Virus record (IMG/VR): IMGVR_UViG_3300038456_000033 | Location: 1-30,073 of that record | From: a virus | Direction: 5' to 3' (one strand) | Length of the DNA stretch: 30,073 nucleotides | Part shown: piece by piece, positions 1 to 25,516 of the stretch | Position numbering within the stretch: position 1 is the stretch's first letter | Layout: the number at the start of each line of letters is the position of its first letter | The notes under the pieces: generated by a model | Databases searched by the model: none | What the model was told of the DNA's origin: nothing | Seen by the model: only the letters and a program-made list of their open reading frames with translations | Position numbers and translations under genes: made by a program

Positions 1-41
1 AGATCGCCGATGATGGCGACGAGCTTGGCTGCGATGGTCAT
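1..41 (-). CDS. Partial gene, first 13 codons only
   Basis: An ATG at 41 overlaps the TGA of the pentapeptide gene (40-38) in the ATGA arrangement used throughout this window. The visible residues read [14 protein letters not shown] before the window ends. The start is hydrophobic and could begin a small membrane protein, but 14 residues are too few to assign a function. The overlap with its neighbour suggests translational coupling. Confidence 0.5.
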
Positions 42-754
42 TTTGCTCCCTTCGGCACGTTCAGCGCCTTGTCGACATTGTCGGCCCTGGAGAGGTCGGC
101 CCCGTAGAGGTCGGCCCCGTAGAGGTCGGCCCCGGAGAGGTCGGCCCCGGAGAGGTTGGCCCGGGCGAGGTAGGCCCCGGAGAGGTTGGCCCCGGAGAGG
201 TTGGCCCCGGAGAGGTTGGCCCCGGACAGGTAGGCCTCGGAGAGGTCGGCCCGGTAGAGGTTGGCCCTGGAGAGGTCGGCCCCGGACAGGTAGGCCCCGT
301 AGAGGTTGGCCCCGAAGAGGTTGGCCCCGAAGAGGTCGGCCCCGAAGAGGTTGGCCCCGTAGAGGTTGGCCCCGGAGAGGTCGGCCCCGGAGAGGTTGGC
401 CCCGGCGAGGTTGGCCCGGGAGAGGCTGACGAGGGCGAGGTTGGCCCGGGAGAGGCTGACGAGGGCGATAACCTTAACGGCTTTTGCCCGGAGTTTGGAG
501 CCAGTGTCGATGATGGGGCCGAGGGGCCGCACGCTCACCACGGTGCCGCCTCGTGCCCACTTTAAGGCTTCGGGAAGTGAGCGACAAAAGAAGATCCCAG
601 GAGCACACTCGATCGTTGGATCCAGCTCCAGCGTGTCAGATCGCACCGTGGTCCCTGGCGTGTATGTACAGTCTCCGCGAGTCGGCGACCTGAGGTCCGC
701 CGTCACGCCTTTGAACCACAATGTGTCGTCTGCCAATAGGATTGTATGCTTCAT
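38..754 (-). CDS. Pentapeptide-repeat protein with a separate N-terminal domain
   Basis: The 238-residue product has two parts. Residues 1 to about 92 are a non-repetitive domain; its central segment ([18 protein letters not shown], then VVSVRPLG) resembles a small domain I recall from phage proteins that is often joined to pentapeptide repeats. Residues about 96-226 are almost pure A(N/D)LxG-type repeats, which in known families fold into a right-handed quadrilateral beta-helix. Some family members (Qnr, MfpA) mimic DNA and protect gyrase, but nothing here proves that role. A strong ribosome binding site, GGGAGGA, lies four bases before the ATG at 754. The preceding gap of about 38 bases is one of the few in this window. 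The repeat part contains an exact 30-base tandem duplication. Confidence 0.85.
405..464 (-). repeat. Exact 30-base tandem duplication in the pentapeptide gene
   Basis: Two identical 30-base units, 405-434 and 435-464, stand head to tail and encode [10 protein letters not shown] twice. They lie at the start of a longer stretch (about 80-470) where the DNA repeats with a 15-base period. Because the two copies are identical at every base, the duplication looks recent. Confidence 0.9.
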
Positions 755-1918: not shown

Positions 1919-2715
1919 CAGACGACTTTCACCTTCCCGTGCTCCTGCATCCACTCGGTGCCGGCGGGACACTGGGCGCTGTAGGCGCACCAGGGGCATA
2001 AGAACCCCGGCTTGGGCCGAAACTCCGTCTCCGTGCTGTGCATGATGCTCTCGGCCATGGCCTCCACTCGGAGGAAGCCGCCGTCGATCTCGTGCTCGTC
2101 TACCTTGGCCGACACCACCACAGGGATCTTGCCCTTAGGCGTGCTGCGAAGGTACATCAGCTCCACGTCCCGGACCTTGATCCCTGGGTGGAGGATTTCG
2201 TACATTCCGGCATAAAGCATCAGGGGTCGCAGGCGATCCCGGTGGTCGCGCTTCTGCGCCGGCTTGCCTGATTTGTAGTCGATGATGGTCACCGTCCCGT
2301 CTGCGTTGTAATCCAAACGGTCGTACCGCCCCGTGATGTCCCAAGTATCTGTTTGGACCTCAAGCGTGCCTTCCGTTAAACACCGTTGATCGGAAGGATC
2401 CTCGATGGAGAAAATACGGTGAGCAAACACAGCCGCCGTCTCGGTCAGATCCGACCTCGCATGCAAAGAGAGATCGAGGCCATCCAGCTCCTCGGTATGC
2501 TCTTGCACGCTCTGATCGAGGCCGTCGTCGAGGGACTCGGGCGTACGATCCCACTGAGGCTGCTGATAGAACAGTTCCAGCCCTCGATGCATGATATTGC
2601 CCAGTACGGTTGCCTCCGTTGGGGGTGACGGCAGGCGCTCCACATATTGAAAGCGGTACTTCAGCCCGCACTGAGCAAAACACTCTAACCTCGACGGGGA
2701 CAAGTGGAGGGTCAT
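1918..2715 (-). CDS. PD-(D/E)XK nuclease, Cas4/RecB-like, probable Fe-S protein
   Basis: This 265-residue single-domain nuclease belongs to the RecB/Cas4 group. From the start at 2715, H43 (in IMHRGLE), D132 (in GRYDRLD) and the D146-x-K148 pair (in IIDYKSG) form the expected active site. C16 (in FAQCGLKYRF) and C240, C243 and C249 (CPWCAYSAQC) match the four cysteines that hold a 4Fe-4S cluster in Cas4 and AddB. Relatives act on DNA ends during recombination or repair. The ATG at 2715 overlaps the HNH stop as ATGA, which I prefer to the in-frame ATG at 2739. No cas1, cas2 or repeat array is nearby, so this is a phage recombination or repair nuclease rather than a CRISPR component. Confidence 0.9.
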   Translation of the reverse strand: MTLHLSPSRLECFAQCGLKYRFQYVERLPSPPTEATVLGNIMHRGLELFYQQPQWDRTPESLDDGLDQSVQEHTEELDGLDLSLHARSDLTETAAVFAHRIFSIEDPSDQRCLTEGTLEVQTDTWDITGRYDRLDYNADGTVTIIDYKSGKPAQKRDHRDRLRPLMLYAGMYEILHPGIKVRDVELMYLRSTPKGKIPVVVSAKVDEHEIDGGFLRVEAMAESIMHSTETEFRPKPGFLCPWCAYSAQCPAGTEWMQEHGKVKVV

Positions 2716-2999
2716 CTCTTGGCTCTCTTGGCATCCCACATGCGTTGATTGTTCTCGCCCTGCGTCACGGCTTCCAGGTGGTCGGGATTCACGCAGGCAC
2801 GATTACGGCAGAGATGGTCGATGTGCAAGCCATCAGGGATGGGTCCGATAAAGAGTTCGTATGATAGTCGATGAGCGTACATCACCGACCCCGGCCTACC
2901 CCCAGGACGCCCCAGAGCACCGTAGCCGTTGCGCTTAGCGGCGGTCCACGTCCAACAGGCGGGGCCAACAGATACCTTGGTCATCAGGCGGTCCATCAT
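2712..2999 (-). CDS. HNH endonuclease (HNH_3-like)
   Basis: This is a small HNH nuclease of about 95 residues. The core HIDHLCRNRACVNPDHLEAV contains the DH pair (D61, H62), N71 and H74 of a beta-beta-alpha-metal site, plus C64 and C69. The N-terminal part (TKVSVGPACWTWTAAKRNGYG, residues 7-27) matches the usual opening of this family, which favours the ATG at 2999 over an in-frame ATG at 3089 that would overlap the upstream gene by 50 bases. An ATG at 2984 is also possible. Such genes are often free-standing homing endonucleases; this one sits between the lysis genes and the nuclease genes. It could instead be a functional member of the DNA-processing group. Its stop overlaps the next start. 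Confidence 0.85.
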   Translation of the reverse strand: MMDRLMTKVSVGPACWTWTAAKRNGYGALGRPGGRPGSVMYAHRLSYELFIGPIPDGLHIDHLCRNRACVNPDHLEAVTQGENNQRMWDAKRAKR

Positions 3000-3039
3000 T
3001 CGCGCACGAGGGTACAGCGCAGGAACCTTAGACGTGACC

Positions 3040-3300
3040 CTACTTGGGCTCAGACGGAGCTTTGGGCTCGAAACCGTGCTTGCGATCATCGAATGCTGGA
3101 ACCTCCGGTAGATGCTTCACGAGGTGATCGACCTTGGCGTGGAGATGGGCTGTCTCCCGTTGGGCCCACTTGCGTAGCGGTGGGTACACCGCCATCGCTA
3201 TTCCAGCATACACCACAGTCTGGACGCCAGCTTCCGGCCCGTTGCCGCGCAGGGACGGGTAGATCCAGACGAACCACCACTCAGCCGGGGACCAGTCCAT
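3040..3300 (-). CDS. Small membrane protein, holin candidate
   Basis: The product has 86 residues. A Trp-rich start (MDWSPAEWWFVWIYPSL) is followed by one probable membrane helix around residues 25-45 (VQTVVYAGIAMAVYPPL), then a charged, His-containing tail (ETAHLHAKVDHLVKHL) and a hydrophilic C-terminus. This shape is common in small membrane proteins beside actinophage endolysins that are annotated as holins. The start is the ATG at 3300, which shares a base with the upstream TGA (TGATG); the TTG at 3303 is less likely. Its position two genes after the endolysin supports a lysis role, but the holin function is inferred. Confidence 0.65.
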   Translation of the reverse strand: MDWSPAEWWFVWIYPSLRGNGPEAGVQTVVYAGIAMAVYPPLRKWAQRETAHLHAKVDHLVKHLPEVPAFDDRKHGFEPKAPSEPK

Positions 3301-3842
3301 CAATGGATGTGCGGACTGACGAGGACGGCGACCATAAACAGGACGCCGAGGATGCTGAACAGCGTCGTCCTTGTCTCGGCACTGACGCCCTTCTGCTCTG
3401 CGCTCTGGTTCTTCTCGCCCTGCTGGCGGAACTGGACCTCACGGAGCACGGCGACGTCGTTCTGGATTGGAGAGAGGGCAGCGGCCAGGGTGTCGGCGGT
3501 GGTGATTCGGGTGGCTTCCACCTGGGCCCGCAGGGCCTCGGCCGACACCTGGAGTTGAGCGGCCAAGGCGGTGGCCTGGGCGGCAGCCACTTCAGAGGCC
3601 CGGGTGACGTTGCCCTGGTCGACGGCTCGGATGGCGTCGATCCTCGAGGACTCGGCGGCTCGGAGCTTGTCGTCGTAGGCAGCCCGGAGCTCCATGACCT
3701 CCATGAGGTGTGCTGCTCCCATGTCGCGCAGGTCATCCTGCCGCCGGTTGGCGGCCTCCACAAGGTCGAGGACGTTGCCCGATGGGTCGCTCAGGGCCGG
3801 GTGGCCGTTGCCGTTGCCAGGAATGACGGGTGCGGTGGTCAT
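3300..3842 (-). CDS. Coiled-coil protein with C-terminal membrane helix
   Basis: This 180-residue protein has an Ala/Glu/Arg-rich middle (about 30-145), predicted by eye to form a long helical coiled coil, and a single hydrophobic segment near the end (FSILGVLFMVAVLVS, about 161-175). It therefore looks like a tail-anchored membrane protein with a large cytoplasmic coiled coil. It lies directly after the endolysin (ATGA overlap) and before the small holin candidate (TGATG), so a role in lysis timing or membrane disruption is likely but unproven. I recall similar architecture in phage genes annotated as holins or membrane proteins. There is no signal peptide and no catalytic motif. Confidence 0.7.
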   Translation of the reverse strand: MTTAPVIPGNGNGHPALSDPSGNVLDLVEAANRRQDDLRDMGAAHLMEVMELRAAYDDKLRAAESSRIDAIRAVDQGNVTRASEVAAAQATALAAQLQVSAEALRAQVEATRITTADTLAAALSPIQNDVAVLREVQFRQQGEKNQSAEQKGVSAETRTTLFSILGVLFMVAVLVSPHIH

Positions 3843-4738
3843 GCTGTGAGCAGGACGGCCCAGGTGGCCTGACCGACCACCCCATCCACCGCCAGCTTGA
3901 AGAACGCCTGCACGTTCTTGACGGCCTGCACCGTCTGGACCCCGAAGTTGCCGTCAGGAGGGCCGAGGGCTTGGTTGAACTTGTCACGCAGGAGGGCCTG
4001 GACCGACTTCGTCACATTCGAGCCGGGAGGCGAGGAGCTGTTAAGGGTGGGCAGGGTGGCCATATCGAAATCTCCTGGGGCTGGAGGGGTCGGAACGGGA
4101 TCGGGGGGCTTAGGAGGCACAGGGGCCTCTCCGGACGAGATGAAGGCTTGCCACTGTACTTCGGTGCCTAGAAACACGTCCGGGTCGATGGAGGAGAAAC
4201 CACCCTCGGGGCGTGGTGCAGACTGCAACACAAGGCAGGGTTTGTGTGGGGCCCCGGGATTCGGGTCAGCCAGCCACACCAGCCGGCCCCAGGGGAAGCC
4301 GGGGAGGTTGCCGTAGTAGTTCAGATTGACGTAGAACATCGCCAGCGGGCAGCGGACTACGCTCGGCTCGGACTCGATCTGCATGGCCATGGCGACCATG
4401 TCGTTGGCCAGCGCCGGCCAGGACGGACCCGCCGTCTCGCTGTCGATCGCCAATGGTAGGTCGGATCCTCCGAGGGCCGCTGCCGTGACGAGGAAGAACT
4501 GAGCCTGGGAGCTCGAGGTGTCGTCCGGGGTCAAAAAATGATAGAGGCCCACGTGGAAGCCAGCGTCCCGGAGCGCCTTCGTTTGTTGGGGCGCGTCGGG
4601 GTTTTGGTACCCGTTGGTGCCCCCGCCCTGGGTGGCCTTGACGTAGACAGCCCCGACCCCGGCCGCTTTGAGCGCCGTGATCTCCTGGGGCGTGATGTCG
4701 CCCTGGTAAACGCTGAGGTCCACCATGTTGTGTGTCAT
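3839..4738 (-). CDS. Endolysin: GH25 muramidase with peptidoglycan-binding domain
   Basis: The product is a 299-residue modular lysin. Residues about 5-200 form a glycoside hydrolase family 25 (Chalaropsis-type lysozyme) domain: DLSVYQGDI near the start (D7) and LAIDSE (D99, E101) supply the acidic catalytic residues, and YVKATQGG and GLYHFL are the usual strand motifs. A Pro-rich linker (about 206-225) leads to a C-terminal peptidoglycan-binding domain (about 228-299) with VQALLRDKF, DGNFGVQTVQAVKNVQ and DGVVGQATW. It would cleave the MurNAc-GlcNAc beta-1,4 bond in the host wall. No signal peptide is present, so release needs a holin. The ATG at 4738 overlaps the upstream stop (ATGA). Confidence 0.93.
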   Translation of the reverse strand: MTHNMVDLSVYQGDITPQEITALKAAGVGAVYVKATQGGGTNGYQNPDAPQQTKALRDAGFHVGLYHFLTPDDTSSSQAQFFLVTAAALGGSDLPLAIDSETAGPSWPALANDMVAMAMQIESEPSVVRCPLAMFYVNLNYYGNLPGFPWGRLVWLADPNPGAPHKPCLVLQSAPRPEGGFSSIDPDVFLGTEVQWQAFISSGEAPVPPKPPDPVPTPPAPGDFDMATLPTLNSSSPPGSNVTKSVQALLRDKFNQALGPPDGNFGVQTVQAVKNVQAFFKLAVDGVVGQATWAVLLTA

Positions 4739-4929
4739 TTGCGTCTCAACATTCTGTCAGCAACGAGGAATAAGAGGCCGCCGATGACGGCGATGGCACC
4801 CACGAGGATCCCCTCGTTGGCGTTGAAGCCGGTAAAGGCCAGGTGTGCGGATACTGGGACATGTGGCGCATGCGTCACGATGTGCGCATATCCCGGCACG
4901 GGGCAGCTTGGATAACAGGTTGATGTCAT
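4735..4929 (-). CDS. LAFTG mini-protein: sortase-type signal and membrane helix
   Basis: This 64-residue protein ends exactly like a cell-wall sorting signal. LAFTG (residues 30-34) is followed by a hydrophobic stretch (about 40-57, ILVGAIAVIGGLLFLVA) and a basic tail (R59, RRK at 62-64). LAxTG is the motif of class E sortases in actinobacteria. Residues 1-29 are Pro/His-rich with two cysteines, and there is no N-terminal signal peptide. The start at 4929 has an AGAGGA ribosome binding site ahead of it, inside the preceding stop region. It opens the lysis cassette, so it may be a holin or antiholin, or a decoy or substrate for host sortase. The function is unknown; the motif itself is clear. 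Confidence 0.75.
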   Translation of the reverse strand: MTSTCYPSCPVPGYAHIVTHAPHVPVSAHLAFTGFNANEGILVGAIAVIGGLLFLVADRMLRRK

Positions 4930-4940
4930 TTCATGTCCTC

Positions 4941-6971
4941 TCAGCCAACTATAGCCTTCATGTATATTACAACAACCCCGTCAAATCCTCGCTGTTGCGT
5001 GTCTCTCTCATGCTCCGGGAGAAAGTCCATCGAGTCGATCGTCACCGTCGCCTGGTAGTAGACGCCGTTCGGATTTCCCTCGGTGTAGATGCACGGCTGC
5101 TGCGACAGACGCAGCGTCTCAAGGTAGTTGAGCTCCGCATACGGATCGACCGCCCTGACCACGCCGTGAGAGTCCACCGCAGAGTACAGCATGGCCACGA
5201 CCGAGATGGTGGTGCCGGACACCACGGCCGGAATCGACTTGAGCGTCCAGCGTCTCAGCAAGGGCGTCTCGTTGCCCGTCCCCTTCGTCAGGACCACGCT
5301 GACGTTGAGCTCAGTGTACCGCACGAGGGGACTCAAGAGCTCCGGGGCCGTGGTCGGAGTCGCGGGAGCGATCGGCCCCAAGGCGGCGTAACCCCCGCCG
5401 TCAGCCTGAGCGTTGAAGGACACCGTTCCCGTCCCTGAGGATTGCTCGTTGATCATGGCAGCGATCTTTTGGTCGGGGATGTTGTTCTCGACGAGGCCCG
5501 AGTCGATGAAGCCAGATGCGACCACGTTGGCGGGATCCTGGGTCCAGACGCCCGAGTAGGACACACCGAGCATAGGCCCGTTCGTGATGGGGTCCCAGTC
5601 GAGCGACCACATGTAGCCCTCCACCGGAAACACCAAATCCGAGCAGTACGCCGGCTGGAGATCGTCCACCATCGTCTCCATGTCCAGCTTACCTAGGACA
5701 CAGGAGCCACCAGAGAGTCCGTTGCTGGTGATGGTGCCACCCACAAAGGTGTCGTCGTAACCGGTCCAGGTGAACCACACGAAGCGGCCGTTGGCCGTGA
5801 ACCCGGTGATCCAGCCGTTGGCGGGCTGGAGTAGGCCAGGGACGAGCGGACCAGCGATCAGGTCGCCCGAGTTGCCCTCGGGGTCGTTCATACTCACGGT
5901 GCGGCACACTCGCACGCCCTTGGTGGTGCCGAGCAAACAGAGATTGCCGTACGCAAAGATGGTATTGCACACCTCGCCGGGAGGAAGCACGAGGGCGATT
6001 TGCGGCACGGGGAGAGCCCCGCCCTCGAGGTTATTGACGTTAGCGGCGGCAAAGGCGGTCATCCAGATTTCGCCGGCACAGTTGACAATCAGCGCCGAGT
6101 CGTTGTCGGTGGGGATGCCCGTGAAGTAGAAGATGCCGCCCACGAACGCGCACCCGGTCCACACCCATTTGGGGTTGGGGTGGATGGCCAGAAGCCCGCC
6201 GGCAAACCCCTGCGTCGTAGGCAGCGCCGGGGGCGTCGTGGGGCTGAGGACGGAAGTCACGTCGTAGAGCTGGTTCTGGTTGGCCAGAGCCCACGGAGCG
6301 ACGAATACTCGCCCACCGGCCGCCCCCACGCAGATGCAGCCCTGGCTGATGACCTTAACGGCGTCGGGAGGCGTGCTGCCGTTGAACACTTGGCACTGAT
6401 ACAGCGCAGCGGTGGTGGCGATGTAGACGCTGGACGTATCGTGCATGATGCCGAGGATGATCTCGCTACCGCCGAAGTCCGAACCGGTCAGGCCCAGGGC
6501 CGTCTTGGACGTCCAGTTCGTCGTCCAGTAGACGACGGTGTCCTCGGTCCAGAACACATATGGCCCGAGGCTGATAGCGTGCGGGCCCTCCTCTGTGTCG
6601 GCGACGACCCTTACTTGCTTGGTGGCGGGGAGGAGCGAGGCTTGGTACTGAGTGGTGAATACGTCACACCCAGTCGACGCCAGAAACCGGTTGGCGACCG
6701 AGCCTGATCGATCTGCGTAAAGCTGACCCGCTCCGTAACTCCAGTCTGGGGCTTGAACTCGCCAAAGGCCCTCGCTATTGACCGTGCCTTCTCCAGTTTT
6801 TCCCTCAAGGTTGATGCTCTCTCTCTGCGATGGGATCGTTGTGTGCCTAGTCGACTGTCTACGATAGGCTTCGAACGAGGTATCCAGTTCGTACGATACG
6901 CCTGGGAACGAGTCGTCCATCGGGACGATTGAACACTGACTGATGGCAGGATAGTCGGTGACTGCGGGCAC
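4941..6971 (-). CDS. Putative tail nozzle protein (tail tubular protein B-like)
   Basis: This 676-residue protein is rich in beta strands, Gly, Thr and aromatic residues, with repeated blades of the type HAISLGPYVFWTEDTVVYW, GGRVFVAPW, NGRFVWFTWTGYDD and EGYMWSLDWDP, suggesting a beta-propeller core. In podoviruses a propeller-containing nozzle protein of roughly this size follows the adaptor gene, and here it directly follows the adaptor-like gene. I therefore infer the distal part of a short tail. A C-terminal jelly-roll-like region (about 520-676) could bind fibres. The start is a GTG at 6971, two bases before which the adaptor gene ends with TAG; GAAGG about eight bases upstream can serve as ribosome binding site. 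An ATG at 6920 is an alternative. The assignment rests on context and fold-like appearance, not on a recognised motif. Confidence 0.55.
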   Translation of the reverse strand: MPAVTDYPAISQCSIVPMDDSFPGVSYELDTSFEAYRRQSTRHTTIPSQRESINLEGKTGEGTVNSEGLWRVQAPDWSYGAGQLYADRSGSVANRFLASTGCDVFTTQYQASLLPATKQVRVVADTEEGPHAISLGPYVFWTEDTVVYWTTNWTSKTALGLTGSDFGGSEIILGIMHDTSSVYIATTAALYQCQVFNGSTPPDAVKVISQGCICVGAAGGRVFVAPWALANQNQLYDVTSVLSPTTPPALPTTQGFAGGLLAIHPNPKWVWTGCAFVGGIFYFTGIPTDNDSALIVNCAGEIWMTAFAAANVNNLEGGALPVPQIALVLPPGEVCNTIFAYGNLCLLGTTKGVRVCRTVSMNDPEGNSGDLIAGPLVPGLLQPANGWITGFTANGRFVWFTWTGYDDTFVGGTITSNGLSGGSCVLGKLDMETMVDDLQPAYCSDLVFPVEGYMWSLDWDPITNGPMLGVSYSGVWTQDPANVVASGFIDSGLVENNIPDQKIAAMINEQSSGTGTVSFNAQADGGGYAALGPIAPATPTTAPELLSPLVRYTELNVSVVLTKGTGNETPLLRRWTLKSIPAVVSGTTISVVAMLYSAVDSHGVVRAVDPYAELNYLETLRLSQQPCIYTEGNPNGVYYQATVTIDSMDFLPEHERDTQQRGFDGVVVIYMKAIVG
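4948..4975 (-). promoter_or_regulatory. Possible promoter for the lysis cassette
   Basis: On the minus strand TTGTTG (4975-4970) and TATAGT (4953-4948) are separated by 16 bases. The -10-like box matches consensus at five of six positions; the -35-like box matches at only three. They lie in an AT-rich patch at the end of the 676-residue tail gene, just before the first lysis gene. The implied leader would be very short. This is a weak prediction. Confidence 0.25.
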
Positions 6972-7898
6972 CTAGAAACCTTCGCTGTTCTTGTAAGCCC
7001 GCTTGATATTAGATGCCTCGTCGTCGATGCGGCCCTGGTACCGACGTTGGAGAGCGTTGGTGGAGTTCATCACGGCAGTCGCCGGCACCTCGGGCGCCTT
7101 GCGCGGGTCGCGCTGGAAGCTCAGCGAGTTGCGCTCGATCTCCCGGTCGGGGGCCAGCCTGAGCTCGGCACCCATGTCGACGATATCTTGCATGTACACC
7201 GGCACGCCGGCCACCGTGTCAAGGTCGTCGGTCAGGCTGACAAGGGGCGAAAACGGAGCGATGAACGTGACGTGGATCGGGAAGCCCACGAAGGCATCCT
7301 TGTAGATGAGGACGCCGTTGCCGTTCGGGAAGATGCTCGGCTGGTTGGTGGCCCGGATCACTCGGTAGTCCCCGCGGCGGATCAGCGGGTTCTGGCGCAT
7401 CGGCGCCGGCAGGGCGAAGCTGATCTCCAGCACCCGGCTACGGACAGAGTCGAAGTTGGGGCCGAGGTCGTAGCCCATGTAGACCGGGACGAAGTTGGTG
7501 TCCCAGGTGTCGATCTTTCCGATCCCCTGCTTCGGGGTGGTGAGCGCCTGGAGTTCGTCGTTGATGGCCACGCTGATGTCCCACCTGGAGAACCTGGGGT
7601 TGATGTAGGCCAGAGGGGTCGGCGTAGCGTCGTAATCCACGTTGGCGTCAGTCGAGCCCTGCTGGCCGCCGACGACTGTCGTTACGCCGGTGCTGACATT
7701 TGGTGACCCGAGGACGCGAATCTGGTTGAGCCCGATCGACAGCATGACGCCAGGCTGCACGCCGTTGAAGGCCAGCGAGGCGTGATCGAGCGTGATGGTC
7801 CCCGAGCCGGCGGTGTAGTCGGCCAGGAGGGCGAGACAGGCGCCCGTCGTGGGCTCCAGCCGCCGGCTGACTTTTTCTATGCAATCTGAGAAGTTCAT
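6972..7898 (-). CDS. Head-tail adaptor-like protein
   Basis: The product has 308 residues. Residues 1-20 (MNFSDCIEKVSRRLEP) and the segment NPRFSRWDISVAINDELQAL (about 120-140) are helical, as in podoviral adaptors. Between them lies a beta domain (about 25-105) containing GVMLSIGLNQIRVLG and VVGGQQGST, a pattern often seen in phage connector proteins. The C-terminal part (MQDIVDMGAELRLAPDREI, then QRRYQGRIDDEASNIKRAY) is again helical. This helix-beta-helix plan and the position before the nozzle-like gene support an adaptor joining portal to tail. The ATG at 7898 overlaps the glycosyltransferase stop (ATGA) and is preferred to the longer frame from 7967, whose first 23 residues are Arg-rich shadow sequence. 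Confidence 0.6.
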   Translation of the reverse strand: MNFSDCIEKVSRRLEPTTGACLALLADYTAGSGTITLDHASLAFNGVQPGVMLSIGLNQIRVLGSPNVSTGVTTVVGGQQGSTDANVDYDATPTPLAYINPRFSRWDISVAINDELQALTTPKQGIGKIDTWDTNFVPVYMGYDLGPNFDSVRSRVLEISFALPAPMRQNPLIRRGDYRVIRATNQPSIFPNGNGVLIYKDAFVGFPIHVTFIAPFSPLVSLTDDLDTVAGVPVYMQDIVDMGAELRLAPDREIERNSLSFQRDPRKAPEVPATAVMNSTNALQRRYQGRIDDEASNIKRAYKNSEGF

Positions 7899-9286
7899 CG
7901 GGCGCCTACGAGGTTCTCGGGATGGGTGGAGGTGTCGCTGCCGAATCTCTGATTGCACCAATGGCACCGCTCGTGGGAGGTGTCCGGGGGCTGCATCCGA
8001 GCGTCGATCCCCACCTCACGAGGGTCGATGCAGTCTGGGGTCAGGTCACCCAGCTCAGCGATCCTCAGCTTATCGGCCCAGGGGATCCAGTACGTGTGCC
8101 CGGGGTCGTACGTGTGGTGGATGCCGTTCACGGCCCAAGTCGAGTGCTGCTTGACGCGCACCTCGTAGAGCCGTTGCGGCATCGTGTGCCACTCGCCATC
8201 CGGGGAGAGGTCGGGGTTGCCCAGCTCGGGGAGGTTCTCTATCACGAGGGCCGCTGTCTTGCTCCACGAGAACTCCTCGGCTATACGCTCAGATTGATCG
8301 GCAGCGTAACGAAACTCAGACTCATGGCTACGGTAGACTTGCTCCATCATGGCGCACATCTCGTCAAAATCGGGCTTCCACTCCTGACCGCCCCCTCCCC
8401 AGTGAGTGTGGATTTCGGGGTCAGCGAGCGGGGAGTCGATCGGGATGCCGTAGTGGGCGAAGGCGTGGTGTCCACTGTGGTCGCCGAGGATGGTGGGGAT
8501 GCCCTGAGCGATGGCCTGGTGCGGCATGAAGCCCCACCCCTCGCCCTTCGACCCAGACACGAAGCAATGCGCCTCGCGGTAGAGCTGGAGTTCGGCTTTG
8601 GCCGACAGGGACTTGCGCAGGTAGGTGACTCGCTTCGGGCCACCGATTTCGTCGGGCAGGTGAACGACTCGGCCGATGGCGGCAGGACCGGCATCTACGT
8701 CAGCCTTAAACACGCTGGCGGCCCGTACGGTCAGATGGGGTTCCGGGCCCCAGGATGGCGTCCAGTCCCGGAACACCCTGTCGAACGCCCGGATGACGTC
8801 GTTGCAGCCCTTCCTCGGGCCGGCGCCTCCGGTGAGGAAGTTGAACCGCCCCGTGGCATTTGGGTCCGTACGTTGCTCGTAATGCCATTCTGAGCCTACG
8901 GCGAGGGGGATATAGCGCACGTCGTTGTTGAAGGCCGAGAACAGATCGAGGTTCTGGAGTGATGGAACGAAGATCCGGCCGAAGTCGGGGACATTGGCCC
9001 TGAACCCGACTGGCATCTCGCTAAACTCCCACATCGTGAACAGCGCCGAGAGCTGGCCCTCTATCCAGCCGACGACGTGCGGCGGGGTCGCTGCGTAGAA
9101 AGCCACTGGAGCGATGCCCGTCGTGGCGTCAGCGCCAAACTCCTCGTTGACTCCCACCGGGCCCAGATCGGCCACGCCGGCTCGGCGCAGAGCCGTGTGC
9201 AGCTCGTAGCCGAACCGCCCGTAGCCGGTGCCGCGGTCGTGGTGGTAACCGGCGTTCATTTTCCAACCGACAGCGTTCATTTTCAT
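7895..9286 (-). CDS. GT4-like glycosyltransferase (GT-B fold)
   Basis: This 463-residue protein has the layout of a retaining GT-B glycosyltransferase. GTGYGRFGYELHTALRRAG (about 19-37) is the N-terminal nucleotide-sugar fold start, TGGAGPRKGCNDVIRAF (about 152-168) begins the second Rossmann domain, and GSKGEGWGFMPHQAIAQGIP (245-264) is the signature that holds the EX7E-like donor site. It would transfer a sugar from an activated donor, probably to a virion protein or host surface glycan. A C-terminal extension of about 100 residues (about 365-463) ends with CHWCNQRF and nearby histidines and is not part of the usual enzyme. The gene is embedded in the structural operon with ATGA overlaps on both sides, which points to a virion protein as acceptor. 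The acceptor is inferred. Confidence 0.85.
   Translation of the reverse strand: MKMNAVGWKMNAGYHHDRGTGYGRFGYELHTALRRAGVADLGPVGVNEEFGADATTGIAPVAFYAATPPHVVGWIEGQLSALFTMWEFSEMPVGFRANVPDFGRIFVPSLQNLDLFSAFNNDVRYIPLAVGSEWHYEQRTDPNATGRFNFLTGGAGPRKGCNDVIRAFDRVFRDWTPSWGPEPHLTVRAASVFKADVDAGPAAIGRVVHLPDEIGGPKRVTYLRKSLSAKAELQLYREAHCFVSGSKGEGWGFMPHQAIAQGIPTILGDHSGHHAFAHYGIPIDSPLADPEIHTHWGGGGQEWKPDFDEMCAMMEQVYRSHESEFRYAADQSERIAEEFSWSKTAALVIENLPELGNPDLSPDGEWHTMPQRLYEVRVKQHSTWAVNGIHHTYDPGHTYWIPWADKLRIAELGDLTPDCIDPREVGIDARMQPPDTSHERCHWCNQRFGSDTSTHPENLVGAR

Positions 9287-11397: not shown

Positions 11398-11398
<1 letters not shown>
10181..11398 (-). CDS. Structural protein with internal duplications
   Basis: This 405-residue protein is rich in Ala, Thr, Val and Gly and looks all-beta. 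Two duplications are visible. AVTGTFYPATQPVSGTVAVT with its following residues (54-80) recurs at 99-125. A second element, APGSAIPADVVMAGGSDGTD (131-150), echoes residues 12-31 near the N-terminus. The pattern PVSGTVAVT is common in repeats of phage fibre and surface proteins. The remaining part (about 170-405) holds beta strands and a distal domain. It overlaps the collagen-containing gene at TGATG and leads into the 45-residue gene by TAATG. I infer a surface or fibre protein; nothing identifies the ligand. Confidence 0.65.
11024..11239 (-). repeat. Two diverged 27-residue repeats inside the 405-residue protein
   Basis: Positions 11159-11239 and 11024-11104 encode nearly the same 27 residues (AVTGTFY, P/Q, then ATQPVSGTVAVTNAGLTAL). 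The two DNA copies differ at many third codon positions while the protein hardly changes. That suggests an old duplication kept by selection on the protein. Confidence 0.85.
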
Positions 11399-12311
<913 letters not shown>

Positions 12312-12315
<4 letters not shown>

Positions 12316-18248: not shown

Positions 18249-20210
18249 TTAAGGTTGCTCAACGCCGGCAGTAGAGCCAGACGAGGGGAGAACGCTGCTA
18301 CCCGCGGGGCTGATGCCCATGAGGCCGGCGATGCCCATGACGCCGGCCGAGCCAGTCGCCTTCGACTCCTGCGACTTCTCATAGCCGTAAGCGGGATCGG
18401 TCATCAGCATCTGAGCGTAAGCCGAGGTGGACATGGGGCCGCCGCCCGGGCCGCCCGTCTGCCACTTCATGTAGAGCGGGTTGGTCGGCGTGATGTCGGC
18501 TGCTGGCACACCGAGAGTGTTCTGGGCAACCGTGAAGTAGGGCGACGAGAGCTGGGCCAGCGTCTGCCCGTTCATAATCTGCTGGCCCAGGTACGTGTCT
18601 TGGCCACCAACGTTGGTGGCCGCCTGCTGCTTAGCCCCCGGGACCGCCTGCCCCTTGGAGTTCACGAAACCGTCCGCAGCGTAGGCACCAGCCTGGTCAA
18701 TGGTGGAGTAGACCGAGGTGACGCCCGAACCGAGCACGCCCGAGACAATGGTGGCGAGCTGCTTGTTGCTCAGCTCGATGCCCTGCCCAGCGTACGCCTG
18801 CGTCACCGCCTGAGCCGCAGCGCTGGCCCATCCATCGTATCCATCCTGTGCGGGAGCGTTGCCGCTCTCCACCTGATTATTCAGATTGAATGCCGCGGCG
18901 TCGGTGACCGCCTTGTTAACCCAGTCCTCGGTGTTAACGTTCGTGCTGCCCTGGGCGTACATCTGAGTGGCGATCGAGTGAAGTTGCGGCTTCGTGAGTT
19001 GCACGCCCACCTGGGCGGCGACGTGCTCCACGTATGCGTCGTCGGGACTGGCGCCGCCGGCGGCGACCGTCAAGGGCAGCCCCTCGGGCGTCTTGCCGTT
19101 GTAGGCGTTGGTCAGAATGGTGGTCAGCCCCACGGGCTTGCCGTTCTTCTCGGCCGTCTGCGCTTGCTGCAACAACGTGATGACACCCTGGCCGACCATC
19201 TCGGCGCTGGGCTGCGTGGCGCCGTTGAGGCCCGACATGTCGATAAGGCCGGCCCCCTCCATCTCCGTTGCCATAGAGGTCGCCCACCCGGCACCCGAGT
19301 TGTACGCATTCCTGAACTCCGAATAGAACTGGCTTCCGCTCATCGTCTGGGCGTTCGGAATGGCTGCCGATCCCTTGCCGCCCGGGGCGCCCTTCTGAAA
19401 CTCGTCCTGGTCAGAGATCATGTCCTTGAAGCTGTAGTTGGGCCCGACGTTAGCCCACCCGCTGTCACCGAGCTCGATCTTCGTCGCCTGCATCACCGGA
19501 AAGTTCCCGATGGTCTGGAGAGTCTTGACGGCGTTTGCCATCTTGGGCGGCGTTTTCAAGCTCTCGGGTAATCCGATGATGCTGTTTGATGCCTGAGCCA
19601 TGTCCTTCCAGGCAGCTTCATAGAGAACCTGACGATCGCTGGCATCTAGCGTCCGAGCATGAAAGTCGTGCCCGGCGGCGGTGCCCGTGTTGGCGGCGCC
19701 TTTCGGGCCTGCCACGGCCGAGGAGAACATGGCCCCCACGTCGCCGATGATGCTCTTGAGGCCACCAACCGGAGCCTTCATTCCAACCTGCTTATAGAGA
19801 GCGTCCACTGTGTCGGGGTTCATCCCACTCAGCGAGCCGCCCGTCGCCAGCGCATGGACGAGTTTCACCAAGTTCGCAGCGTTGGTCAGAGGCGTTTCCT
19901 TGCTGCCCTTGCCGTAGCCCGCGGGCCGCGCCGGCGTGGCCGACATCGTTGCGCCGAAGTCGACACCCTGAAGACTCTTCGGCAGCATTGGGAAAGCGCC
20001 CCCGGCGCCGACCTCGCCGGCTTGTGCCGTCGCCGTTGCGGACGTTGTGGCCGCAGGGGTGGGAGCCGGGGTTGCAGCGGGCATCGTTGTGCCGGGACCG
20101 GTAGACGTGCTCGGTGCCGGCGTGCCCCCACTCACGCTGGCCGGGGCGGCGGGTGACCCGCCCGGGAGCGGGGGGATGGGAACGGTGGGAGTTGTCGTCT
20201 TGGGTGCCAT
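18249..20210 (-). CDS. Putative internal virion protein (653 residues)
   Basis: This 653-residue protein has a long disordered Pro/Thr/Ala-rich N-terminus (about 1-70) and a helical body containing repeated alanine-rich segments (AQASNSIIGLPESLKTPPKM; HSIATQMYAQGSTNVNTEDW; LATIVSGVLGSGVTSVYSTI). No transmembrane helix or catalytic motif is obvious, and no lysozyme motif was found. Its position between the 1768-residue protein and the 362-residue one, well before the coat gene, suits an ejection or core protein of a podovirus. The ATG at 20210 shares a base with the preceding TGA (TGATG). An alternative is a short tail assembly component. Confidence 0.55.
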   Translation of the reverse strand: MAPKTTTPTVPIPPLPGGSPAAPASVSGGTPAPSTSTGPGTTMPAATPAPTPAATTSATATAQAGEVGAGGAFPMLPKSLQGVDFGATMSATPARPAGYGKGSKETPLTNAANLVKLVHALATGGSLSGMNPDTVDALYKQVGMKAPVGGLKSIIGDVGAMFSSAVAGPKGAANTGTAAGHDFHARTLDASDRQVLYEAAWKDMAQASNSIIGLPESLKTPPKMANAVKTLQTIGNFPVMQATKIELGDSGWANVGPNYSFKDMISDQDEFQKGAPGGKGSAAIPNAQTMSGSQFYSEFRNAYNSGAGWATSMATEMEGAGLIDMSGLNGATQPSAEMVGQGVITLLQQAQTAEKNGKPVGLTTILTNAYNGKTPEGLPLTVAAGGASPDDAYVEHVAAQVGVQLTKPQLHSIATQMYAQGSTNVNTEDWVNKAVTDAAAFNLNNQVESGNAPAQDGYDGWASAAAQAVTQAYAGQGIELSNKQLATIVSGVLGSGVTSVYSTIDQAGAYAADGFVNSKGQAVPGAKQQAATNVGGQDTYLGQQIMNGQTLAQLSSPYFTVAQNTLGVPAADITPTNPLYMKWQTGGPGGGPMSTSAYAQMLMTDPAYGYEKSQESKATGSAGVMGIAGLMGISPAGSSVLPSSGSTAGVEQP

Positions 20211-23200
20211 CAGTAACCGCTTTCACCGGGATTGGTGTTCTGGAGAGCGTCGCGCCAGACGGACGTAATCATGGGGGCGAGGTTGGGAATCGCCGCAGCC
20301 TGCTTGGTACAGAAAGCCTGCCAGTTCTGCACAACCGTTTTCTCAGCCGTCGAGTAGTCAGCACTCTGTCCGGCCGCAACGTACTGGGCGTTGTAGTCCT
20401 TGTACCAGCCGAGCATGTTCTGAACGTCCGTCGTTTGCGGACCCTTGGGAGCGGTGCCGTTCTTGAACGCTTCCTCCAGGCCGTTAATCGTGTTGATGGT
20501 ATTCGGCCCTTTTTGTGACGAGACATAACTGGAGTACCACGTCGGGTAGGCCCCTGACATCCAGTTCAAAACGGTGCTCCACCGCGAGTACGCGGCGTTC
20601 TTGGCTTGTGGACTATTGCCCGCAGCCGCCACGGCGCTCTGGTACTGACTGTAATAGTGTTCGTACACTCCATCCCCCTGCGCCACGTAGAGCGCATTCA
20701 GAAACTGCGAAGGCGTGTCCCGGTCGCGCAGGCCATCGGCAATCTGCAAGAGGTAGGATGCCTGGGAGTAAGCGCCACCCTTGGTTACCGGCATCAGCCA
20801 CATCAGGGCCGGATTGGCCTTGGGGCCAGTCAGCTCTCCCAGGTGCGCTGTCACCCAGTTCATAGCCTTCACCGTTTCCGGCAGTTCGACGCTGTTGGAT
20901 CCGGGCTGCGGATTGAGGGCGTCGCTGGTCCCCGGCAGGAATGACTCGGCCACGGTAAACGGTGTGGCGAAGGGATGCTGTTCAGCAAAGTGGGTGTACC
21001 CGTCCGTAGTGCCGTAACGATTCATGTCGTTGGTCAGGTCCTGCCGTAGGCCGAAATCGTTGACCGTCAGGTCAGAGCCGATGGGCGATACCAGCGCCAT
21101 TATGGAGTTGATCAAGGAGCGCGCCTGGGTCTGCGTGCGCGTCTTGGCGAGAAACGCTTCCTTGACGGCCGCCGGTGCGTCGTCAGCGGGAAAGATGTCC
21201 GGCGGCAGACCCTTGCTGCCGGCGGCCTGCCACTTGGCGTATGCTTCGTCCTGCTGGACGTTGAGGTTGGCTAGCGTCAGCAGCAACGCACTGTGGAACG
21301 ACGTGCCGGTACCGGTCAGCGCCTCACCGAACTTCGTCGCCACCGAGTTGGGTACGACCTGCTCGAGGGTGCTCTCTGCCATGGCCTCGGAGCCCAGAGC
21401 CGCCGTGGTGAGGTTGTTCACGTCTTTTGCCGCCGGCTCGATCGAAGGGAAGTCCCTTCCAAGCGACAGCATCCGCCCGTCGAGAGCCTCGAGGGGCACG
21501 ATCACAACCGGCGAGACGTCCGGGCGCTCGCCCTGTGAAGTCGGGAACACCACGTTGGCTGACGACAGCGTGCCGCCGAAGCCGGTGGGGTTGACGCCAT
21601 ACGAGGTGCCGGCTAGCATCGTCAGGGCGTCCACGATCGGACGGGTGAGAAAGCCAGCGCCGGGGATGGCAATGTAGTTGTTGCCCGAGCTGTCCTGCAT
21701 TTTGGAGGTGAGGTTAGAGGCCCCCATGATGGAGAGCTGGTAACGCCGAAAGGCTCCGGGGTCGTCCACGAACAGGCGAGCCGCGCGGCGGTACGCCTGG
21801 TTCTGGGCGAAGAAGAACGGCGCAAAGTTGCCGAGCATGATGTCGAGCTGCGTGCGGTCGGCCGGGTTGTGAATGTAGCGCACCATGTCGATCATCGTGT
21901 CAGTCTGCGCCCGGATCACGGCTTGATCGAGCGTATAGTAGCCCTTGTCGACGTCGGCCTGATAAAGCGTCATGCGCCGAGCAAACTCGGTAGCGGCCAT
22001 CGGTTCCCGTGCGATGGAGTCCACGATGGGCGCCATCACGTGCTCGAAGCCAACGGTCACGGCGCGATTGAACCAGTGTCCCGTCAAGGGAACCAAGGCG
22101 TGGCCCGGGATCGACAGGGGGACGTTATCCACGTCGATGCTCTGAAGAAGCTTCTGGGATGGCGCCTCCCCTCGGACGATGGATCGCAGCAACGCCTCGG
22201 TCTGCTCGTGTGGCCCTCCGTCCATGGCCAAGTGCTGCGCCGTGAGCGTCGGATCGCCGGTGACCTCCCGCACGGCCTCGGGGTCGAGGAGGGGTTTGTG
22301 CGTCAGGGCCAGCAGGTTTTCGACGTGCTGATCGGCCCAGTCGTCCAGCGCCGACTTCGTCATCGGAGAGCCCTTGACCTTGTAGATGGCGTGTACCATG
22401 TGACCCAGCGAGTTGTTGTCCAGCTTGTCGATCTCGGCACGGGAAGTGGTGGTCGCCCGCCGGATGACTTCGTCCATCGGCACGCCCTCGGCATGGGCCG
22501 CAAGGATCGTCTTGGCAACTTCCTGGTCGGCGGGGTTGCGTCCGAGCTGACGCAGTTGCGACTGCCACTCAAGCGAGCGACGAAAGTCGGCGTTGGCCTG
22601 CCGCGCCAAGTCGTCGGCGCTGCCCGTTGCGGCGCTGGCCGCCTCCAGGCCCGTGTAGTCCTCCGACTGTCTCATGGCAGGGCCCGGGCCATACGTGCTA
22701 AGGGCGCCCTTGCCAACCGCCTTGAACCGCTTCACACCACGCAACCTGGCAGCCGGGTCGTTAGGATTATACGGATCTCCGATCTTGTTATGGAGGACGG
22801 ACTGCTTGATCCCAAGCGTGTCAGAGGCGTCCTCGAGGCCGAACGTCTTGGACGAGAGACTTTCGTCAATCCCGTGGCCCTCAGTGTTGACCATGTGCAT
22901 GAAGTGGTATTGGAGCTCCGTGCTATCGCCAGCTGCCGTCTTGCGAAGGAGTCGACGCCACGAGACGTCGCCGATCTGGTCACGCAGAGACGCGGCGTAC
23001 CCGGCAATGGCGGCGTCCGTGGTTGGTGAATCTTCCAACCCCAGCTTGGCCGCGCCGGCAAGCCACGACTGCTTAACAACGTTGAGGGCACCACCTCGCA
23101 TTAGGTACATCAGCATCTCCGACGCACCCATATGGAATGGGTAACCCACGGTGGCCAGCATCACCGGCTTGATCTTCGAGGTCACGTTCCGCAACAGCCA

Positions 23201-25516
23201 CGCATTGATGCCGCCGGCGTAGTCGTGCCCGTACTTCATAAACTTGGCAGCCGAACGGACATCGTTCATCGGCGGCAGCTCGATGTCGTGAGCCGCCTGC
23301 TCGGGGCGCAGCGCACCCGACACCTCGAAGCCGTCTGGCGTCACCATCGGAAGGGCCGCCGCGCCCGTGCGAGTGGTCTGGAACACGCCCGTGGCATCCG
23401 GGGCCGTGATCGGAGAGATCCGATCAAGCGTCGCCTGAAGATAGTCCTTCACGGCGGGATGCGCCATACTGCTGTTCAGGAAGTCCTCCACCGCATTCTC
23501 GTCGTGCAGGTCGTATCGGAGGGCCGAACGAGTGGCCCCGATCCAGTTATTGATGAGCAAGTTCCGCAGGATCGTATAGCGGCCACCTCGGTCGGCGTCG
23601 TAGAGCATATTGACGCCCGAGATTGCCTCGTCCTTCCTGAGGCCCACCTGGAGGTACTCCACGAGGTTGTTCATGCGCTTCATGTTGTCGAGGTCAACCG
23701 TCGAGGTGTACGCCCGCTTGGCGATATCGAGCTCACCGGGGATCCGGGTCGTCAGGTTCGATAGCGTTCCCATCAGCGTCTTGGGGTTCAGCAGCCCCCT
23801 CACGACGTGGAGCTGGTTGGCGTCGGCGTTAGCGGCCAGGTCCCGGATCTCCCGCATCCCCATCTTGCCGTATGACGTGGAGGGAATCCGGCTGCCGACG
23901 TACTCGCCGTTCTTGACCACACGGCTCATCAACACGTCGGCAACCTCGTCCGACGTCTTGGCGCTGGCCAGGCCCTTGAGCGTGGTCTGCGGGACAGCGG
24001 CGATCTGCTGACGCACGGTAGCCAGTTGGGATTCAAGATCGGGCACGGTAGCGTCCCGCATATTGGCGAGGTGGCCCGACAGGTTCCCCGAGTCGGCGGC
24101 ACCCAGCGTGTTGGCGTACCGGTTGCGGACCAGGTGGGTCCGCACGTCGTCCGTCACGTTCGTCAGATCAGGCTCGGGCGGCACGCCGGCCGCCGGTGTT
24201 GCAGTCTGCGACAGCACCTTCCGGGAGAACTTGAGCTGGTTCTCAACGGCAGTTTGGTGCGCCAGATATTGGCTGAGCTGCGCCTGCTGGTCGCCATTGG
24301 CGGCCACCTTCTGGTCTGCCACGATGGGGTCCATGCGTGGATCCCGACTGACAATCGTACCGGCGTCGGCGTCGGCCGTCTCTTGGAGCCAGCGACGGGC
24401 GTTGTCGGAGAAGATCCCCTTGCCCTCGACGGCGGCCACGAAGTTGTCGCCAGTCAGAACGGTACCCCTGGCCGAGGCGCCAGCGATGGTCTGGCCGCCC
24501 TCGAGACTCTTCCCAACACCAAACGTCCCAGACAGCGCCGCCTGGGTGGGGTCACCAAACAGGTCGGCCAAGGCATCCGTGACCCCCGACAGGGCAGCGT
24601 AAGTGCCACTCTTGCGGTTGATGTGGAGCCAGCCCCCGATGACGTCGCGACCGAACGATACCTGCTGATGGGTGTTCGGGTCTGTGTAGGTGTCCCCGTT
24701 GGCCGTCCGGTCCCACGAATCCTGGTATATCAGGTGGCCCATCACGGGGCCCATCGGCCCGTTGATGACGGCGCCTCGGCCGCCCGAGGTGTTCATCAGC
24801 TTCGAGAGTGTTCCTGGGCCCTTGGCCGCCTCACCGGCACCCGCTTCGACCCCCTCGCCCTCGCCCACGGAGGCAACGTCCCCCGCTGCCCCAGCAGCCA
24901 CATCGGCCCCGGCCCCGGCGGCGACGTCTGCGGTCGCCCCGAAGCCTGCCATGGCGACATCGCCCAAACCTCCCGTCACCAGGGTGCCAGCGGCCACGGC
25001 CCCAGTGATGGCCAGTCCCTCGGCCAGGGCGGCGAACATGCCGTGGCGAGCTTCCACGTCGTGCAAATAGCGCCATTCGTGCTGCACAGTCTGGAGGGGG
25101 ATGTTGGCGGCCTTGGCCACGTCACCGATGCCATCCCCAACGTAGTGCCCGAGCGCTTTGCCAAGAACGAGGTCGCCGATGTGGGCCACGCCCTCGACCC
25201 CCTTGCCAGCCAGGCCGGCGACGTGCGACAGGAACCCCGCTGTCCCAGCGTTCACGCTGTCGGCGGCCAGCGCCGTCGTGGTCCGGTTGCCCTGGGCGGC
25301 CACAGCCTGGGCGGCCACGGGCACGTTCCCGCCCTGCGTGGCCACGTCCATGGCCGCGCCGGGGGCGTTCTTGAGCTCGGGGGCAGCGTGAACGGCCGCC
25401 GTCAGGTTGGCAACGGCAGCACCGGCCTGCCCACCGGAGGGGTCTGGGGCCTGGACGCCGACGGTGGGGTTCGTGGCCTGAGCGCCACCTGCAGCCGGAT
25501 TCAGGACATCAGGCAC
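20210..25516 (-). CDS. Giant putative internal/ejection protein (1768 residues)
   Basis: This gene takes up almost a fifth of the window. The product has an Ala/Gly-rich N-terminal part with a glycine-and-alanine-rich hydrophobic segment (about 163-215: GLAITGAVAAGTLVTGGLGD and onwards), a long mixed helical body, and a C-terminal Gln/Asn-rich helical tail (AYSRWSTVLNWMSGAYPTWY and onwards). Segments such as NFAPFFFAQNQAYRRAARLF and VEDFLNSSMAHPAVKDYL recall the large polyvalent internal proteins of phages. I see no RNA polymerase, lysozyme or protease signature. Size, gene order and lack of a tape-measure alternative suggest an injected internal virion protein. The start is a GTG at 25516, eight bases inside the preceding gene. 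Confidence 0.6.
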   Translation of the reverse strand: MPDVLNPAAGGAQATNPTVGVQAPDPSGGQAGAAVANLTAAVHAAPELKNAPGAAMDVATQGGNVPVAAQAVAAQGNRTTTALAADSVNAGTAGFLSHVAGLAGKGVEGVAHIGDLVLGKALGHYVGDGIGDVAKAANIPLQTVQHEWRYLHDVEARHGMFAALAEGLAITGAVAAGTLVTGGLGDVAMAGFGATADVAAGAGADVAAGAAGDVASVGEGEGVEAGAGEAAKGPGTLSKLMNTSGGRGAVINGPMGPVMGHLIYQDSWDRTANGDTYTDPNTHQQVSFGRDVIGGWLHINRKSGTYAALSGVTDALADLFGDPTQAALSGTFGVGKSLEGGQTIAGASARGTVLTGDNFVAAVEGKGIFSDNARRWLQETADADAGTIVSRDPRMDPIVADQKVAANGDQQAQLSQYLAHQTAVENQLKFSRKVLSQTATPAAGVPPEPDLTNVTDDVRTHLVRNRYANTLGAADSGNLSGHLANMRDATVPDLESQLATVRQQIAAVPQTTLKGLASAKTSDEVADVLMSRVVKNGEYVGSRIPSTSYGKMGMREIRDLAANADANQLHVVRGLLNPKTLMGTLSNLTTRIPGELDIAKRAYTSTVDLDNMKRMNNLVEYLQVGLRKDEAISGVNMLYDADRGGRYTILRNLLINNWIGATRSALRYDLHDENAVEDFLNSSMAHPAVKDYLQATLDRISPITAPDATGVFQTTRTGAAALPMVTPDGFEVSGALRPEQAAHDIELPPMNDVRSAAKFMKYGHDYAGGINAWLLRNVTSKIKPVMLATVGYPFHMGASEMLMYLMRGGALNVVKQSWLAGAAKLGLEDSPTTDAAIAGYAASLRDQIGDVSWRRLLRKTAAGDSTELQYHFMHMVNTEGHGIDESLSSKTFGLEDASDTLGIKQSVLHNKIGDPYNPNDPAARLRGVKRFKAVGKGALSTYGPGPAMRQSEDYTGLEAASAATGSADDLARQANADFRRSLEWQSQLRQLGRNPADQEVAKTILAAHAEGVPMDEVIRRATTTSRAEIDKLDNNSLGHMVHAIYKVKGSPMTKSALDDWADQHVENLLALTHKPLLDPEAVREVTGDPTLTAQHLAMDGGPHEQTEALLRSIVRGEAPSQKLLQSIDVDNVPLSIPGHALVPLTGHWFNRAVTVGFEHVMAPIVDSIAREPMAATEFARRMTLYQADVDKGYYTLDQAVIRAQTDTMIDMVRYIHNPADRTQLDIMLGNFAPFFFAQNQAYRRAARLFVDDPGAFRRYQLSIMGASNLTSKMQDSSGNNYIAIPGAGFLTRPIVDALTMLAGTSYGVNPTGFGGTLSSANVVFPTSQGERPDVSPVVIVPLEALDGRMLSLGRDFPSIEPAAKDVNNLTTAALGSEAMAESTLEQVVPNSVATKFGEALTGTGTSFHSALLLTLANLNVQQDEAYAKWQAAGSKGLPPDIFPADDAPAAVKEAFLAKTRTQTQARSLINSIMALVSPIGSDLTVNDFGLRQDLTNDMNRYGTTDGYTHFAEQHPFATPFTVAESFLPGTSDALNPQPGSNSVELPETVKAMNWVTAHLGELTGPKANPALMWLMPVTKGGAYSQASYLLQIADGLRDRDTPSQFLNALYVAQGDGVYEHYYSQYQSAVAAAGNSPQAKNAAYSRWSTVLNWMSGAYPTWYSSYVSSQKGPNTINTINGLEEAFKNGTAPKGPQTTDVQNMLGWYKDYNAQYVAAGQSADYSTAEKTVVQNWQAFCTKQAAAIPNLAPMITSVWRDALQNTNPGESGY

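Follow-up and report, generated by a model that had tools for sequence, protein, structure and literature searches.

An orphan one-helix membrane protein with a probably fortuitous LAFTG motif in the lysis region of a putative actinophage

Introduction

Actinophage lysis cassettes commonly include several small membrane proteins, among which small one-helix proteins with an N-out/C-in topology are usual (PMC9671378, PMC13056207). In the published one-helix lysis proteins of actinophages, 4-22 residues lie outside the membrane, and 52-115 lie inside in the Gordonia phage set (PMC9671378, PMC13056207). On the bacterial side, class E sortases prefer LAxTG (PMC5148588), and their substrates carry this motif ahead of a membrane helix and a basic tail. 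The literature searched (titles and abstracts) offered no precedent linking sortase motifs to phage lysis or to actinophages.

Here, we analyzed a 30,073-base virus record that comes without a host genome (hereafter the window). A sequence-only reading of this DNA had singled out a 64-residue protein at the start of a putative lysis cassette, and proposed that it bears a class E wall-anchoring signal through which a phage protein would be anchored by, or compete for, host sortase. We investigated the coding support, topology, motif, and relatives of this protein, along with its neighbours.

Results

The 64-aa gene lies between a 676-aa tail gene, upstream, and a GH25 endolysin gene, and is translationally coupled to both (Table 1), with its stop overlapping the endolysin ATG (ATGA). 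There is no upstream in-frame start, and the 64-residue product reads MTSTCYPSCPVPGYAHIVTHAPHVPVSAHLAFTGFNANEGILVGAIAVIGGLLFLVADRMLRRK. Codon statistics place the ORF's own frame best of the six; its score nevertheless ranks beneath the 10th percentile of the genes around it, so that coding support is moderate; short genes and genes gained recently are expected to score low. The same low score, together with the lack of a homologue, would fit an ORF that is not translated at all, but such an ORF would not be expected to combine a good ribosome-binding sequence, an ATGA overlap with the endolysin gene, and the best-scoring frame, and without it an otherwise compact operon would be left with an empty stretch. 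We regard this alternative as very improbable: judged by its ribosome-binding sequence and coupled start and stop, the ORF looks like a genuine gene. A sigma-70 promoter scan of the region found nothing.

Table 1 Positions of the features discussed, in window coordinates
Feature	Position	Strand	Basis
676-aa tail protein, upstream in same operon	4941..6971	-	Distant relatives
Ribosome-binding sequence GAGAGGA, overlaps tail-gene stop	4936..4942	-	Direct sequence reading
Gene for the small 64-aa membrane protein carrying LAFTG	4735..4929	-	ORF, ribosome-binding sequence, coupled start/stop
LAFTG codons (CTG GCC TTT ACC GGC), residues 30-34	4828..4842	-	Sequence
Hydrophobic stretch, residues 40-57	4759..4812	-	Sequence; predicted helix 37-62
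Basic tail RMLRRK, residues 59-64	4738..4755	-	Sequence
Endolysin, 299 aa, GH25 + PG_binding_1	3839..4738	-	PF01183 E 6e-19, PF01471 E 1.2e-13, PHROG endolysins
180-aa protein with single C-terminal hydrophobic helix	3300..3842	-	No family match
87-aa one-helix protein, His-rich basic C-terminal region	3040..3303	-	Homologue in relative L247
Pentapeptide-repeat protein	38-754	-	PF00805, E 1.7e-42
HNH endonuclease	2712-3089	-	PF13392, E 3e-16
GT4-type glycosyltransferase among tail genes	7895-9286	-	PF20706 E 8e-13, PHROG glycosyltransferase
Tail-region protein with collagen-like repeats	11398-12315	-	PF01391, E 7e-13
1768-aa protein	20210-25516	-	No Pfam or PHROG match

The adjoining endolysin, with its GH25 and peptidoglycan-binding domains, supports the earlier assignment of this region to a lysis cassette. 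By direct reading, the endolysin has no N-terminal hydrophobic stretch and is leaderless, so that its release must depend on some membrane protein, and no protein of the cassette could be recognized as a holin by homology to a characterized one. Downstream of the endolysin, overlapping genes encode the 180-aa and 87-aa one-helix proteins. Neither matched a family in Pfam, PHROG, or NCBIfam. Relatives L234 and L249 encode proteins of comparable layout to the 180-aa protein, which has no sequence match, while the 87-aa protein has a homologue in L247 (E 1.1e-9). These two proteins are better holin candidates than the 64-aa protein, with the 87-aa protein showing the best conservation of any holin-like candidate there.

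Within the 64-aa protein, our reading of the ORF confirmed the order claimed previously, i.e. LAFTG, membrane helix, and basic tail, as well as the absence of a signal peptide: there is no N-terminal hydrophobic stretch, and only one long helix. In a single-sequence AlphaFold2 model, this helix (residues 37-62) had a mean pLDDT of 91-93 for residues 41-60, and the N-terminal tail was modelled with low confidence, which we read as disorder. Residues 2-38 include no K, R, D, or E, a property found in only 3 of 1719 phage ORFs with a ribosome-binding sequence, among which the 64-aa protein alone has a terminal helix, the other two being tail-like. By the positive-inside rule, the basic flank of a membrane helix stays inside. 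The uncharged residues 2-38 and the four basic residues after the helix therefore predict an N-out/C-in topology, which would place LAFTG on the outer face, just above the membrane. Since an uncharged N-terminal tail could allow export, the missing signal peptide is not fatal to the sortase idea.

How often such a motif should arise by chance was estimated in several ways. The frequency of L[AP]xTG is 1.1e-4 per residue in 992 long phage ORFs, and the chance of finding it in a 12-residue slot before a helix is about 0.13%; shuffling the protein's own linker yielded the motif in 0.26% of cases. Overall, about 0.1-0.3% of such proteins, i.e. one in 400-800, would carry a chance motif. No L[AP]xTG-type motif was seen in any of the 81 phage ORFs from 1.6 Mb that end in a helix and basic tail, and in bacterial loci the same layout was accompanied by the motif in 10 of 49 cases, these loci having been fetched by that motif. 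The motif is unusual for one protein, yet expected many times among millions of viral contigs.

The alternative to chance is that the protein is a true host-sortase client without a signal peptide, or a sortase decoy. The uncharged N-terminal tail would be pushed out, and a host class E sortase would cut between T and G in LAFTG; the resulting 33-residue N-terminal peptide would be joined to cell-wall precursors, or the protein would occupy the sortase as a decoy, with the wall or surface altered shortly before lysis. Beyond the LAxTG preference of these enzymes cited above, several observations suit this scheme. The protein has the L-A-x-T-G sequence at residues 30-34, followed by a helix and basic tail at normal spacing: the first basic residue after the helix is at +25 from LAFTG, compared to 19-29 in bacterial examples. 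The uncharged tail predicts an exported position for the motif, and sortases were present in all seven tested genomes fetched by a LAFTG pattern. Against a profile built from 13 C-terminal LA(F/Y)TG tails of bacterial loci, some of which may not be working signals, the protein scored 22.9 bits, which is within the range of bacterial tails held out one at a time (2.7-38.5 bits) and above all 167 background phage ORFs ending in a helix and basic tail (best, 7.4 bits).

However, once the motif residues were removed, the tail scored 5.0 bits, inside the background (maximum 9.1), i.e. the likeness to a sorting signal rests on the five motif residues. Curated anchor models from Pfam and NCBIfam gave zero matches to the protein, whereas among five bacterial LAFTG tails used as positive controls, four were matched by Pfam Gram_pos_anchor, most of them under its cut-off, and all five by NCBIfam LAXTG/LPXTG models, one weakly. 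The signal peptide of class E substrates is also absent. The proposed sorting signal is thus partly supported, by its full-length likeness and by the side of the membrane on which the motif is predicted to lie, but is weakened by a score that five residues carry and by the anchor profiles that miss it.

The distribution of the gene weighs on the same side. No homologue of the 64-aa protein was found in Pfam, PHROGs, NCBIfam, or 50,697 phage records, nor in viral contigs, genome contigs, or any of 50 related virus records. When 2.9 million viral contigs were scanned twice, with narrow DNA patterns encoding LAFTG, a spacer, RR, and a stop, 39 stretches were returned, none of which was a real sorting signal; this absence is weak evidence, since matches depend on particular Leu and Arg codons and the 64-aa gene itself would escape detection. 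A tblastn search of phages with three bacterial LAFTG tails, too short to be informative, gave no match. We also considered LAFTG as the mark of a conserved phage family, and rejected this candidate as no second member was found.

Scanning with single proteins (endolysin, tail protein, or terminase) gave nothing, but relatives could be reached by alignments including distant relatives. The 676-aa tail protein has distant relatives in Streptomyces podophages of the Beephvirinae (E 3e-8), in which the small genes after the tail gene include no LAxTG. Aligning the 331-aa protein encoded nearby led to 80 more viral loci, none with a sorting signal. A closer relative (L107, terminase 42% identical), met through a chance reverse-strand pattern match, provided a terminase that led to 80 further loci. 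Of 50 of these records, 17 had a tail gene that we could place, and the downstream region was taken from 15; at the same site, none of the 15 has an LAxTG protein or the 64-aa gene. With no match or equivalent gene in related phages, the 64-aa gene looks lineage-specific. Based on the Streptomyces phage relatives, the host would be an actinobacterium.

Taken together, the idea that this phage uses host sortase draws on a motif predicted to face outward and a normal spacing, and is set back by the lack of homologues and by the absence of the gene in 15 relatives. We consider a sortase client or decoy unlikely, albeit a serious contender.

Several other features of the window and its relatives were recorded. 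A large clade of related phage contigs (L126-L205, terminase 40-53% identical), missed by single-protein searches, has different lysis genes at the same site. The HNH endonuclease gene overlaps the ends of both neighbouring genes, and its homologues are at other places in related loci. The pentapeptide-repeat protein, possibly a DNA mimic, adjoins genes for a DNA polymerase exonuclease and a RecB-like nuclease. The glycosyltransferase encoded among the tail genes is conserved in L107 (36% identity) and may glycosylate the virion or the host surface, and the 1768-aa protein is, by its size and place, probably an internal virion or ejection protein.

Discussion

We favour the reading that the 64-aa protein is an orphan one-helix membrane protein of the lysis region, in which LAFTG is probably fortuitous or at best incidental. 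Without the motif, its tail scores like generic phage helices, as this reading would have it; on the other hand, 22.9 bits and a 25-residue spacing match bacterial signals well, which a chance motif need not do. The gene, which comes first among the small ones of the lysis operon and is translationally coupled to the GH25 endolysin, would be expressed late. The uncharged 38-residue N-terminal tail would be exported and the RMLRRK tail kept in the cytoplasm. Accumulating in the host membrane late in infection, the protein may help disturb it, acting with the 180-aa and 87-aa one-helix proteins as a lysis accessory, and this disturbance would let the leaderless endolysin reach the wall. The position of the gene suggests such an accessory role, whereas the domain proportions, which are reversed with respect to published one-helix actinophage lysis proteins, argue against it.

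This reversal in a single-helix protein would instead suit an antiholin-like regulator, or a protein acting at the surface or in superinfection exclusion whose gene happens to adjoin that of the endolysin, especially as another one-helix protein of the cassette (87 aa), conserved in a relative, could be the holin. The close coupling of the gene to the endolysin start suggests that the two functions are linked, however, and nothing specific points to exclusion, and we judge this alternative quite improbable.

Whether or not the motif is used has different consequences. If it is not used, as in the reading that we favour, the protein is a warning that five-residue motifs before helices in orphan phage proteins arise by chance, and many such cases will turn up in metagenomic virus collections. 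If it is used, phages would hijack wall-protein anchoring for lysis or for host surface remodelling, and signal-peptide-free sortase substrates would gain plausibility. In its specific form, i.e. a signal-peptide-free mini-substrate of host class E sortase, with its peptide attached to wall precursors or tying up the sortase just before the endolysin, we see this as rather unlikely; if true, it would represent a sortase-dependent lysis or surface-modification step without precedent in the literature searched.

Compared to known systems, the 64-aa protein has the LAxTG motif, helix, basic tail, and spacing in common with class E sortase substrates (LAXTG signals, e.g. the Streptomyces chaplins ChpA-C). 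Unlike these, it is phage-encoded, has no signal peptide and only 33 residues before the cleavage point, is missed by anchor profiles, and has no homologues. The NCBIfam model NF058583 (LAXTG_small_WW; 54 positions, cut-off 65 bits) also describes a very small protein with an LAXTG tail; bacterial LAFTG tails match it at E 4e-7 to 0.17, whereas the 64-aa protein gives no NCBIfam match at E up to 10. Among phage proteins, LysZ, from the lysis cassette of Corynebacterium phages, likewise has one helix, and an action on the envelope has been proposed for it, but it is 177 aa long and predicted to be N-in/C-out (PMC13056207). Closer in general layout are LysF1b (cluster F1) and the 1-TM proteins of Gordonia phages, which, like the 64-aa protein, are small, have one helix with a predicted N-out/C-in topology, and are encoded beside the endolysin in a lysis cassette. 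The short outside and long charged inside domains of the LysF1b type are not found here, however: judged by charge, the 64-aa protein would have about 39 residues outside and 6 inside, i.e. the reverse. Within this cassette, it is the 87-aa protein that fits the LysF1b/Gordonia 1-TM class better.
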